This document shows positions 7,255-11,689 of a DNA stretch of 26,922 nt, one piece after another. A program made the position numbers and the translations under genes. This DNA is from Thermoleophilia bacterium. GTDB taxonomy: Bacteria > Actinomycetota > Thermoleophilia > Gaiellales > Gaiellaceae. Every line of letters starts with the position of its first letter. The stretch's first letter is position 1. The notes beneath the pieces were generated by a model. The model ran no database searches. It was not told the DNA's origin and saw only the letters and a list, made by a program, of their open reading frames with translations. The stretch spans positions 1-26,922 of the forward strand of contig JAERMP010000003.1 in the NCBI GenBank assembly GCA_016844515.1. Reading direction: 5' to 3'.

Positions 7255-7282
7255 GACGCCGCTTTCGTCGGCCTGGGGCGTC
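7255..7282. terminator. Weak hairpin between convergent sigma genes
   Basis: GACGCC (7255-7260) and GGCGTC (7277-7282) can pair across 16 bases in the gap between the two convergent sigma genes. The gap is only 27 bases, so one arm enters the minus-strand stop codon. There is no T-run on either strand. A bidirectional terminator role is possible but weakly supported. Confidence 0.2.
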
Positions 7283-8396
7283 AGGTCGCGTCGACGGCCT
7301 GCATCTCGCGCAGGCTGCCGAGGCGCCGGAGCGATTCGAGCTCGATCTGCCGCACGCGCTCGCGGGTGAGCCCAAGCCGCCTCCCGATCTCCTCGAGTGT
7401 TTGCGGCTCCGCACCTGTGATCCCATAGCGCATCACGACCACCTCGCGCTCGCGCGGGGGGAGAGCTGCGAGCGCGTGCCGCAGGGCTTCGCTCCGTAGA
7501 TGGAGCTCGACAGCCTCTTCGGGGAGGGGTTCGTCGCCTGCGACGAAGTCGCCGAACACCGCGTCCTCGCCGTCGCCGACGGGGGCGTCGAGACTCGTCG
7601 AAGCGCGGGCGGCCGCCCGTACCTCGAGCACCTGCTGGACGGTCAGCGACGCCTCGTCGGCGATCTCGTCGAGCGTCGGCTCGCGCCCGAGCTGCGTCCA
7701 CAGCAGGCGGTCGGCGCGGTTGATCTTCTGCAGTCGCTCGACGATGTGGACCGGCATGCGGATCGTTCGCGCCTTGTCCGCCAGCGCTCGCGCGACGGCT
7801 TGGCGGATCCACCACGTCGCGTAGGTCGAGAACTTGAACCCGCGACGCCAGTCGAACTTCTCGACCGCCCGAATGAGCCCGAGCGTCCCTTCCTGGATGA
7901 GGTCGAGGAACGGAAGCCCCTGGTTGCGGTAGTTCTTGGCGATCGAGACCACGAGGCGGAGATTCGACTGGATCATCCGCTCCTTGGCGTCCATGTCCCC
8001 GCGCTCGATCCTCTTCGCGAGCTCGACCTCCTGAGCGGCGGTGAGAAGCTGGTGCCGGCCAGCCTCGCGCAGAAAGAGCTGTAGCGCGTCGGTGGTCGTC
8101 TCAACGGGCGCGGTCAACGCAACAACGGCCTCCGAGTGCGGCGTCTGCTCGACGATCTCGATGCTTCGCTGGTCGAGCTCCCGCAGGAGCACGTCGTGCT
8201 CGAGCTCTGTGAGCTCGTACGCCTCGGCGATCTCGGCCAGATCGGACGCCCGGATGGTCCCGACCTGCTCGGACTGCTCGAGCAAGAGCCGGATGTCCTC
8301 GAAGCCGAGGATGTTGTCGATGTCGATTTGGGTCACGCGCGGCGGGGGAACGGAACGAACGCGGTAGGTGACACTCTCTCGCGTCTGGCGCGCCAT
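7281..8396 (-). CDS. RNA polymerase sigma factor, RpoD/SigA-like with region 1.1-like N-terminus
   Basis: A 371-residue sigma-70 protein with a longer N-terminus than its neighbour. Residues 22-85 ([16 protein letters not shown], later [20 protein letters not shown]) resemble region 1.1, which blocks DNA binding by free primary sigma. Region 1.2 is [12 protein letters not shown], region 2 has [12 protein letters not shown] and [16 protein letters not shown], and region 4.2 is [20 protein letters not shown]. The region 1.1-like part makes this the better candidate for a vegetative sigma, but both genes carry complete core regions. ATG 8396 is 67 bases from the stop of the upstream zinc-ribbon membrane protein. 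No Shine-Dalgarno is visible. Confidence 0.93.
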
Positions 8397-9358: not shown

Positions 9359-10297
9359 CTAGAAGGTCGCCGCCCGCACCCCGCTCACGATCGCGAGCAG
9401 CACGAGCGCTGCAACGATGAGCCTGTAGACGACGAACACGCTGTACGTATTGCTGCGCACGAAGCCGAGCAGCCAGTCGATCGCGAGGAGGCCGCTCCCG
9501 AGCGCGGCGAGCGTTCCGACGACGAAGGGGCCCTGCCAACCGGCGGGAAGATCGCCCAGGAGAACGTCCCCCACTCCCTTGAGCGCAACCGCCCCGAGCA
9601 CCGTCGGGAGCAGCAGCAGGAACGAGAATCGCGCCGCGCCGTCGCGATCGAGCTTCATGAAGCGGCCTGCCGTGATCGTGATGCCGGAGCGCGAGACGCC
9701 GGGTGCCAGCGCGAGCGCTTGGGCGCAGCCCATGATCAGCGCGTGCCCCAGGCCAAGATCGCCCATGGCGCGGCTCTGCGCCGAGCGGTCGGCCCAGAAC
9801 AGGAGCAGCGCACCGCCGGCGAGGAGGAGAAGGATCTGCCACGGCTCTCCAAGCTTGTCTGCGATCAGATCTTCTCCCGCCAGGCCGGCTAGCCCCGCCG
9901 GAATCGTGGCGACGAGCACGAACCAGGCGATTCGTTCGTCGGATGACTCGACGCGCCTTCGTCCGATGGAACCGAACCAGGCGTGGACGAGTCGAACGAT
10001 GTCACCCCAGAAGTACGCCCCCACGGCGACGAGCGTCCCGAGATGGAGCGAGACGTCGAAGGTCTGGTTGAAGCGGTCGTTCTCTTTCAGATACGTCCAG
10101 TCGGCGCCCCAGGGAACGAGGATCAAGTGCCCGGATGACGAGACCGGGAGGAGCTCGGTGAGGCCCTGGACGACGCCGAGGACGAACGCCTGCCCGTTCG
10201 TGAGGGCTGCCGGGTCGTCACCGACCCCGAGCAGGGTCAAGACCGCGGCAAGCCCGAGCGCCGCCCCCGCGACGCTGTACACGACGGAGCGGCGCAC
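9359..10297 (-). CDS. uppP: Undecaprenyl-diphosphatase UppP (BacA)
   Basis: Integral membrane phosphatase that converts undecaprenyl diphosphate to the monophosphate, recycling the lipid carrier for peptidoglycan and other wall polymers. Overexpression gives bacitracin resistance in known relatives. The 312-residue protein has both family signatures. These are GVVQGLTELLPVSSSGHLIL (41-60), with the catalytic-site glutamate and serines, and APGVSRSGITITAGRF in the second inverted half. Multiple hydrophobic spans cover most of the sequence. GTG 10297 is chosen because TAGGAT (10309-10304) ends 6 bases before it, as in a leaderless promoter. Length is near the usual 270-290, slightly long. Confidence 0.95.
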   Translation of the reverse strand: MRRSVVYSVAGAALGLAAVLTLLGVGDDPAALTNGQAFVLGVVQGLTELLPVSSSGHLILVPWGADWTYLKENDRFNQTFDVSLHLGTLVAVGAYFWGDIVRLVHAWFGSIGRRRVESSDERIAWFVLVATIPAGLAGLAGEDLIADKLGEPWQILLLLAGGALLLFWADRSAQSRAMGDLGLGHALIMGCAQALALAPGVSRSGITITAGRFMKLDRDGAARFSFLLLLPTVLGAVALKGVGDVLLGDLPAGWQGPFVVGTLAALGSGLLAIDWLLGFVRSNTYSVFVVYRLIVAALVLLAIVSGVRAATF

Positions 10298-10303
10298 GCC
10301 GAG

Positions 10304-10309
10304 ATCCTA
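10304..10309 (-). promoter_or_regulatory. -10 box of uppP (leaderless)
   Basis: TAGGAT on the minus strand lies exactly 6 bases before the GTG start of uppP. No convincing -35 is seen 16-18 bases further upstream. Confidence 0.5.
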
Positions 10310-10378
10310 CGTTCAGCCACGGCGGGTGACGGCAGAAGAAAACGAGCGCAAATTGCGGCAATCCGGTGAACGCGGGCC

Positions 10379-10407
10379 TTGACCGCTTCGGCCCCGTCCA
10401 ATAGCTT
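10379..10407 (+). promoter_or_regulatory. Sigma-70 promoter in the uppP/small-protein gap
   Basis: TTGACC (10379-10384) and TAGCTT (10402-10407) are separated by exactly 17 bases. This is the best-formed -35/-10 pair in the window. The predicted start is near G10415, the first base of the candidate structured RNA. Confidence 0.5.
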
Positions 10408-10414
10408 CCCCTTT

Positions 10415-10526
10415 GCACCGAGCACGGAGCGCGACTAGGTCGAAGCGCAGCTCGCAGGCTCTACGCGGAAGCGGACGGTCAGCGGGTTGTGTGGACGAAA
10501 GCGCCACCGGCTCGGTGAATTTTTTT
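10415..10526 (+). ncRNA. Candidate structured small RNA with intrinsic terminator
   Basis: A transcript starting near 10415 would begin GCACCGAGC and end GCTCGGTGAA followed by seven T (10520-10526). CACCGAGC (10416-10423) is the perfect complement of GCTCGGTG (10510-10517), so the two ends pair as an 8-bp closing stem directly before the T-run. The 3' half can alternatively form a small CACCG/CGGTG terminator hairpin. Inside are CGAC-TAG-GTCG (10432-10442) and CGC-GGAA-GCG (10464-10473). A 17-bp-spaced promoter lies just upstream. It lacks the signatures of 5S rRNA, SRP RNA and tRNA, and I recognise no known RNA family. No persuasive open frame covers it. Confidence 0.4.
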
Positions 10527-10537
10527 GGTCCTTTCTT

Positions 10538-10595
10538 GGGGTCAGGTCTTGCATTCCTACACCACGCTTGGTGTTGGAATGCAAGACCTGACCCC
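10538..10595. repeat. REP-type 58-nt near-perfect hairpin
   Basis: The left arm GGGGTCAGGTCTTGCATTCC (10538-10557) is perfectly complementary to the right arm at 10576-10595. Inside, ACACCA (10559-10564) pairs with TGGTGT (10569-10574) around CGCT, leaving one T/T mismatch. Arms starting GGGGTCAG and ending CTGACCCC are typical of dispersed REP-like palindromes mobilised by IS200-like (RAYT) transposases. No transposase is in the window. Its right arm ends two bases before the -10 box of the following small gene. Confidence 0.7.
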
Positions 10596-10597
10596 GC

Positions 10598-10603
10598 TAG
10601 GAT
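10598..10603 (+). promoter_or_regulatory. -10 box of the 65-residue membrane protein gene
   Basis: TAGGAT lies 8 bases before ATG 10612 and two bases after the REP hairpin. A TTGGAA in the right arm of the hairpin (10574-10579, 18 bases away) could act as a -35. Confidence 0.4.
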
Positions 10604-10611
10604 CGGTTCCA

Positions 10612-10809
10612 ATGCACCTCCGAGCTCCGAGCATCGACCAAGGCGTCCACGCGTTCGGCTGGTCGGTCGTGTTCTTCCTCTACATGTGGCTCGGCGGTCT
10701 CGCGATCGACGTGCCGGGCGGCCTGGCGTTCGTCGTCTCGTTGCTCGCAGCGGGAGCGATCTTCCTGTTCGTCAGGACGCGCGGCGGCGACGGCCCCCGC
10801 CGGCGCTAG
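10612..10809 (+). CDS. Small two-span membrane protein
   Basis: A 65-residue product with two hydrophobic spans (about 15-33 and 37-54) joined by a short turn with IDVPGG, ending in a basic tail (RTRGGDGPRRR) expected in the cytoplasm. Function is not recognised. ATG 10612 is chosen although the frame is open from 10525, because the extra codons would translate the REP hairpin. TAGGAT lies 8 bases upstream. It converges on a small minus-strand frame 9 bases away. Confidence 0.6.
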   Translation: MHLRAPSIDQGVHAFGWSVVFFLYMWLGGLAIDVPGGLAFVVSLLAAGAIFLFVRTRGGDGPRRR

Positions 10810-10818
10810 ACGAATCGT

Positions 10819-11010
10819 TCAGTCGCGCGCGACGCGTTTGTCGCTGAGAGCGGCAACGAGTCGGTCTGCGAAGTCGCGGCCGAGTGCAGCCTCAAGGCGA
10901 TCCACGGCGGGTGTCTTGGTGCCCGTGTCTCTCCCGGCGATTGCGCTGACATCGGCAAGGAGGCGCCTCGAACCAGCGGGCGCGACTGTAGTGAGGACGG
11001 CGGCATTCAT
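10819..11010 (-). CDS. Small hypothetical protein
   Basis: The frame from ATG 11010 gives 63 residues. It has a mildly hydrophobic start (MNAAVLTTVAP) and a helix-prone C-terminal half (VDRLEAALGRDFADRLVAAL) ending in basic residues. I recognise no family. Codon third positions are GC-rich, as in neighbouring genes, which favours coding. There is no visible Shine-Dalgarno or close -10 box. The frame is open upstream to 11166, but that part would overlap the 3' end of the next gene. The start is therefore the only in-frame ATG in the gap. Confidence 0.4.
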   Translation of the reverse strand: MNAAVLTTVAPAGSRRLLADVSAIAGRDTGTKTPAVDRLEAALGRDFADRLVAALSDKRVARD

Positions 11011-11083
11011 GTAGCGAGCATCGGCCGCCGCTCGCTCGCTGCCGATCCCTGGCGGGAGTGAACGTCGCGCGCGAGCCGGTCGT

Positions 11084-11689
11084 TCAGAGCTCGAGATCGA
11101 GTCTCCTCTCGTCGAAGGTCGCCGAGTCGAGCTCAGCGCGGAAGTCGGCGGCGGCACGGAGTGCATCGCGTTCGAAGACGTGCGCCACTACTCCGACGTG
11201 TGCATCGTTTCGAAACGGGATGTCAACGTGCTCACGCGTCACCAGGTTCACCGAGACCGACGAGCACGCCGGGCACTGGACGGCGACTCCGAAGGCGCGC
11301 CCGCCCGGAGCAATCAGCACGAACGCAGACGGCGTTACCGGGCGCGGCCGACCCTCGAGAAAGCAGAAGAAGCTCCACGGCCACTCCCCCGCGCGGATTC
11401 GGCCCGCAGACAGATCGACCAGCTCCGTCGCGATCGGGTCGTCGTGCGCGGTCATCAGGTTCCTGAACGTGCGATCGATCGTCGTGCCGAGATGCGCCCA
11501 GTCGAGATCGTCGTGCGCGATCAGACCCGCATGCTCGCCGCCGCACCCACAGGCGAACTGAATGCGGTACACCGCGGGATGGACAGCTCCTGGGAGGCGG
11601 TCGAGCGTGCGGAAGGCCGACAGCGGCACCTGCGCTCCGCGCCCGTGTGGGCACGAGAACGAGTATGTGCTCGTCAGCGGGTCATACAT
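11084..11689 (-). CDS. Conserved-looking hypothetical protein with Cys motifs
   Basis: A 201-residue soluble protein of unknown function. Cysteines occur as Cys13 (SCPHGRG), Cys47/Cys49 (ACGCGGEH) and Cys139/Cys142 (CPACSS), a pattern that could bind zinc. The start resembles a target-recognition segment (MYDPLTSTYSFSCPHG). Further segments include WSFFCFLEGRPRPVTP and FVLIAPGGRAFGVAVQ. No membrane span or signal peptide is evident. ATG 11689 lies 41 bases after the apt stop on the same strand, so it may be the last gene of the rsiG-like/FHA/merR/apt transcript. Confidence 0.65.
   Translation of the reverse strand: MYDPLTSTYSFSCPHGRGAQVPLSAFRTLDRLPGAVHPAVYRIQFACGCGGEHAGLIAHDDLDWAHLGTTIDRTFRNLMTAHDDPIATELVDLSAGRIRAGEWPWSFFCFLEGRPRPVTPSAFVLIAPGGRAFGVAVQCPACSSVSVNLVTREHVDIPFRNDAHVGVVAHVFERDALRAAADFRAELDSATFDERRLDLEL

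Follow-up and report, generated by a model that had tools for sequence, protein, structure and literature searches.

The gap adjoining uppP raises the question of whether a short stretch flanked by promoter-like and terminator-like signals is a gene for an RNA in its own right or belongs to the gene that follows, and, if it is a gene, how its product would act. In the window, that is, the whole stretch of 26,922 nucleotides that was analysed, the predicted element occupies 114 nt of the forward strand in this gap (10413–10526), and its transcript, with a start placed at about 10413–10415, would be about 112 nt long. Direct reading gives TTGACC at 10379–10384, a 17-nt spacer and TAGCTT at 10402–10407, as well as the closing arms CACCGAGC (10416–10423) and its complement GCTCGGTG (10510–10517), all of which are present as a preliminary description of this DNA had them; the 3′ arm is followed by AA and then seven T (10520–10526). 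Folding of 10415–10526 reaches −58.2 kcal/mol against a mean of −40.4 kcal/mol for shuffled sequences (z = −5.05), and none of 200 shuffles is as good. That description proposed a discrete, structured RNA that has promoter elements of its own and is closed from end to end by a stem; covariation and the promoters of relatives lend support to this, and the element is very probably a free-standing structured RNA gene, a judgement drawn from comparative sequence analysis, folding and a covariance model. Not contained in the description are an operator-like palindrome, the further copies of the RNA and a promoter element belonging to the neighbouring gene.

A protein scan with uppP led to three loci. 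L001, the closest of these (uppP 90% identical), retains the gap; its 114-nt core and that of the window differ at four positions, and the promoter and operator have hardly changed. No such RNA was found at a second locus (uppP 60% identical). Searching the L001 genome revealed further places of the RNA besides the uppP gap, and the DNA of the window is matched at E ≤ 0.01 in 96 of the 103 genomes of the family to which L001 belongs. From 123 nhmmer hits, 94 distinct cores were retained, those shorter than 100 nt being left out; upstream features were counted in 91 (over 140 nt) or 90 (over 200 nt) of these 94 copies and genomic context in 95 copies. The RNAs form two classes, class A, which includes the window copy and is usually 114 nt long, and class B, mostly 111 nt. 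Eleven of the 94 cores are longer class A forms of 128–131 nt, in many of them by virtue of a longer apical part, and class B copies often share their stretch with an MFS transporter gene (L038, L068, L071, L072). Tandem arrangements are frequent, with two or three copies spanning a few hundred bases and each having promoter elements of its own, and between tandem copies the string TAGAGCA recurs shortly after GGTCC (L031, L067, L068, L071, L072). The window also carries, two genes from the RNA, a sigma-70 gene on the reverse strand (7281–8396) with Pfam regions 1.2, 2, 3 and 4, and in several other loci a similar gene adjoins the RNA in divergent orientation (L050, L093, L094 and others).

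To describe the family, the 71 class A cores of 114 nt were reduced to 61 differing by more than 4%, from which one class B-like row was removed, and the remaining 60 sequences were used to build the covariance model R1. This model matches 106 of 129 genomes of one order, at one to six places in each among the matches listed; the order is probably Gaiellales, and is taken as such because “Gaiellaceae bacterium” is the organism named in 4 of the 120 listed homologues of the 65-aa protein encoded downstream. Sampling of the class gives 106 of 349 genomes, all of which appear in the list of the order, and sampling of the phylum gives 4 of 396, all four in the same order. R1 found nothing in 23 of the 129 genomes of the order under strict filters, several of these being small or partial. 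Since samples of more than 40 genomes were searched with stricter filters, with 9 to 29 candidates scored per genome, weak matches may be lost. A second model, R2, built from ten class B sequences, matches 84 of 299 genomes of the class, a figure that is not a count of class B because many of the matches are weakly scoring class A copies.

Across the 60 class A sequences, the RNA is predicted to be a rod of 34 pairs in which 94.0% of cells are paired and 24 pairs change on both sides, so that the compensatory changes proposed as a check in the preliminary description are indeed present. None of 500 shuffles reaches any of five covariation measures, and controls in which the partners were slid pair in 27–36% of cells, compared with 94% in the rod. 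The eleven pairs tested were left out when a quick tree was built, and on this tree the minimum number of changes in pair type is 11 at 5–104, 11 at 35–78, 8 at 52–61, 6 at 53–60 and 2 at 6–103, although the tree rests on few columns and these counts are therefore rough. When ten homologues from both classes were folded, z ranged from −3.46 to −6.98, with one of 200 shuffles as good in one homologue and none in the other nine. The closing helix joins columns 4–20 (10416–10432) to columns 89–105 (10501–10517), with 97.4% of cells paired and changes on both sides at 10 of 15 pairs, and its sequence is conserved beyond the need for pairing, whereas the middle helix, formed by columns 33–47 (10445–10459) and 66–80 (10478–10492), drifts freely, 11 of its 13 pairs changing on both sides. 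For the short helix 2, the register that pairs the invariant G26 and C84 fits slightly better (94.2%), and neither register has a pair that changes on both sides. The view that no credible open frame covers the element holds loosely, as a mechanical open frame (10413–10847) does overlap the RNA; of the 94 copies, 60, 37 and 9 are open in the forward frames, and 79 in one of the reverse frames. Core lengths, however, include 111, 113, 114, 115 and 128–131 nt, and no single reading frame survives the differences.

Two internal loops and a capped hairpin interrupt and end the rod. In loop 1, U24, A25, G26, G30 and A31 on the 5′ side (columns 21–32; 10433–10444) and A83 and C84 on the 3′ side (columns 81–88, GGACGAAA; 10493–10500) are invariant in the 60 sequences. 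The apical module (columns 48–65; 10460–10477) consists of loop 2, of the form nnUA/GA, and a CGC-GNRA-GCG hairpin. The hairpin CGC-GGAA-GCG described for the window is paired in all 60 relatives, all three of its stem pairs covary, and its loop is a GNRA tetraloop throughout (GGAA in 52, GCAA in 8). The other internal hairpin that had been described, CGAC/GTCG, lacks conservation, with G as the fourth base in 42 of the 60 and T in 2, and its bases lie within the conserved internal loop. The bulged-G motif, also called the sarcin-ricin or loop E motif, is a non-canonical stack of AGUA on GAA, and the two internal loops resemble such modules, with AnUA (22–25) opposite GAA (85–87) in 54 of 60 sequences, nnUA opposite GA in 56 and the GNRA cap in every one. 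The letters mostly fit, but 18 of 60 sequences, the window copy (with C) among them, have C or T in place of the bulged G of loop 1, which is therefore not a strict bulged-G motif. Strict mimicry of the sarcin-ricin loop was considered as well and is weakened by the 128–131-nt cores, many with the longer apical part. Sites of the GGA type bound by CsrA were dropped because the apical GGAA is a GNRA loop with GCAA as an alternative form.

The presumed terminator, AA with the T-tract (10518–10526, forward strand), had been read as the 3′ end of the transcript, a reading that fits 73 of the 94 copies, in which at least five of eight bases are T; the tract is absent from the other 21. Beyond it, GGTCC is conserved in 57 of 94 copies, which termination at the T-tract does not explain. 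For both reasons, the 3′ end may lie further on. Among the 21 copies without the tract, a scan found a hairpin plus a T-rich tail right at this place in three, and L073, also without a T-tract, has a shorter hairpin terminator of the same kind. In the window, the terminator scan flags a hairpin at 10505–10517 as one of three terminator-like sites, shuffled sequences averaging 1.5. It had been suggested that this small hairpin and the closing stem, which share a 3′ strand, are alternative states of a switch. The alignment of 60 sequences speaks against it, for the hairpin (93–97/101–105) has 74% of its cells paired, no double changes and shuffles that do as well, while its competitor, the closing stem, covaries. 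Replacement of the closing pair 5–104 from A-U to G-C usually breaks the hairpin pair 94–104, which is unpaired in 38 of the 60. With no conserved alternative structure in the small hairpin, the switch was rejected.

Upstream of the RNA, the signals are arranged with little variation. Complete upstream DNA is available for 91 copies, of which 90 combine a −35 element with TTG and a −10 element of the form TAnnnT, the latter at −11 or −10, in a plain count without a shuffled control; the spacer is 17 nt in 74, 16 nt in 10 and 18 nt in 6. A strict sigma-70 scan of 9400–11400 flagged no promoter, and the promoter call in the window gains weight from the same elements in the copies of relatives. 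Further upstream lies the operator-like palindrome CGCAAATTGCG (10347–10357), whose centre is 61 nt upstream of 10413. Allowing up to two mismatches, 80 of 91 copies have it, and in 79 of these it begins between −64 and −68; in a control window of equal size, none of the 91 has it. The palindrome is rare, with 37 sites in 12 genomes and none for a reversed-pattern control. When 30 of these sites were fetched, an RNA was found to start 65–68 nt on at 19, and 11 have no RNA copy, which suggests that the putative regulator may have other targets. In two genomes (L119 and L121, at about 1501), the palindrome is likewise found ahead of a conserved gene encoding about 152 aa, possibly a co-regulated target. 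Class I activators bind at sites centred near −61, and the position of the palindrome is accordingly read as that of an activator site; it is probably an operator for a regulator.

In 25 copies, an inverted repeat TCCACA..TGTGGA, which we take to be DnaA-box-like, occurs upstream of the operator at nearly fixed positions, about −129 to −84 relative to the RNA (L049, L054, L057, L059, L075, L094 and others). A search for dnaA in 11 genomes located the gene in 10. In two genomes with contigs of 2.6 and 3.3 Mb, whose RNA copies are without DnaA-box-like repeats, it lies hundreds of kilobases from the listed RNA copies, and in draft genomes it is on a different contig, which is not proof of distance. 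A replication origin at the RNA locus is thus not supported by the positions of dnaA, nor do they strictly exclude it.

With respect to the mode of action, conservation sits in the internal loops, which makes protein binding the leading mechanism, and we judge it slightly better than an even chance that this, rather than base pairing, is the main mode of the RNA. A quite different role would be that of a trans-acting base-pairing sRNA, whose tail or loops pair with mRNAs and whose rod serves as a scaffold for stability. The promoter elements, the several copies, the U-rich tail and, behind it, the GGTCC that 57 of 94 copies share would all suit such an RNA. Yet the molecule is almost wholly paired, its conserved unpaired letters are purine-rich loops facing a fixed opposite strand, which is unusual for a seed, and GGTCC lies beyond the presumed end of the RNA. 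Base pairing as the principal function is therefore rather unlikely, if the most serious of the competing explanations.

More doubtful still is a cis-acting leader, an attenuator or riboswitch in which the closing stem and U-tract would form a terminator relieved by a ligand ahead of the next gene. That gene (10612–10809, forward strand, ATG at 10612) encodes a membrane protein of 65 aa, is syntenic with the RNA and follows, on the same strand and within 800 nt, 54 of 95 copies in a tblastn search; the closing stem, moreover, abuts the U-tract. The protein has 632 homologues and no Pfam family over the cut-off, with one hit at chance level (E = 0.079). The gene nevertheless has what is presumed to be a leaderless promoter of its own, TAGGAT at 10598–10603, and, of 37 distinct upstream sequences with a placeable start (from 44 called genes), 35 have a TAnnnT ending 4–10 nt short of the start codon, compared with 1 of the 37 at a control offset. 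Furthermore, 41 of the 95 copies are without the gene: a different gene on the same strand comes first in 24, an opposite-strand gene in 15, six of these within 60 nt of the RNA, and no gene was called in 2. The neighbour's own promoter element and the 41 copies without it make a free-standing sRNA likelier than a leader. Two further points oppose a leader. The competing small hairpin does not covary, and in the window, unlike in L001, an insertion separates the RNA from the 65-aa gene.

This insertion is a palindrome of 58 nt beginning GGGGTCAGGTCTTGCA (10538–10595), and its absence from the same place in L001 indicates that it is not part of the RNA. It looks like an insertion of the REP/MITE type, and its 16-nt half is also present, in a single instance, next to a different RNA copy in L013. 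The presence of a true palindromic insertion just beside the RNA, together with several copies per genome, some of them in tandem, could prompt the view that the element itself is repeat or mobile DNA rather than an RNA gene. The compensatory changes and the fixed geometry of the promoter make this most improbable, as does the recurrence of copies, in many fetched loci, at comparable syntenic positions close to uppP or a sigma-70-like gene.

Nor does the RNA correspond to catalogued families. The preliminary description had recognised no known signature, and Rfam 15 agrees: over the whole window at E ≤ 1, no family falls on the RNA, and in the search of Rfam it had suggested, the RNA is without a match at E up to 10, the seven hits within 10340–10620 all lying on the adjacent palindrome (10525–10607), below cut-offs. 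Two class B copies gave two hits (E = 0.64 and 3.9), far below cut-offs. Small SRP RNA (RF00169) is a rod of about 100–114 nt with two internal loops and a GNRA cap, and the predicted RNA shares with it the length, the single rod, the two loops and the cap; it differs in failing to match the model and in occupying up to six places per genome, and a separate SRP RNA was found, away from the listed rod copies, in 13 of 15 genomes tested, so SRP identity was rejected. 6S RNA (RF00013) is a long closed hairpin with its own promoter, features that the rod shares, and a sigma-70 gene is found two genes away from the copy in the window, but the rod is shorter and has only small internal loops instead of a large central bubble. 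Moreover, 6S-like matches (E ≤ 0.1), only one of them over the cut-off, were found away from the rod copies in 13 of 15 genomes, and 6S identity was rejected likewise. Such matches below the cut-off, for instance L159–L162 in Gaiellales genomes, are possibly real 6S RNAs just under it. Qrr and RsmY/RsmZ are multi-copy, regulator-driven bacterial sRNAs, and the rod resembles them in its several copies, its presumed dedicated regulator site and its predicted structured transcript, kinship having been compared through the Rfam scans only. Literature searches, at the level of their listings, gave no small RNA of Gaiellales. A diverged housekeeping RNA, whether SRP, 6S or another known family, thus deserves next to no credence, for all the resemblance of the GNRA-capped rod to small SRP RNA, as Rfam offers no match and separate SRP and 6S-like RNAs are found elsewhere in these genomes.

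At the level of sequence, a family of free-standing structured RNA genes that no Rfam 15 entry matches is well supported. Taken as a whole, the explanation that we favour, with moderate confidence, is a free-standing, regulated, multi-copy sRNA gene whose product acts in trans through loops presented to protein. A dedicated regulator, bound at the operator palindrome about 61 nt upstream, would drive a sigma-70-type promoter, and transcription ending near the U-tract would yield an RNA of roughly 112 nt. This transcript would fold into a rod comprising, in order, the closing helix, loop 1, the covarying helix, loop 2 and the GNRA-capped hairpin, and its two bulged-G-like loops would be presented to a protein in trans, with the several copies per genome adding dose. 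It is tempting to go a step further and speculate, as a long shot, that the RNA is a decoy, in which two tandem loop-E-like platforms and the GNRA cap, produced in multiple copies under the regulator, titrate a protein of the translation machinery that binds RNA. If so, the target might be, for example, a ribosomal protein that binds loop E, the RNA would be a sponge that tunes ribosome assembly or translation, and the DnaA-box-like repeats at the promoter would, in part of the order, tie the RNA to replication.

Owing to its strong covariation, its range across most of the genomes of the order that were searched and the fixed design of promoter and operator, the family is ready for immediate annotation, and a search for its regulator and partner can begin. 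To our knowledge, few RNA regulator systems are understood in high-GC bacteria, and this family adds a concrete, testable case.
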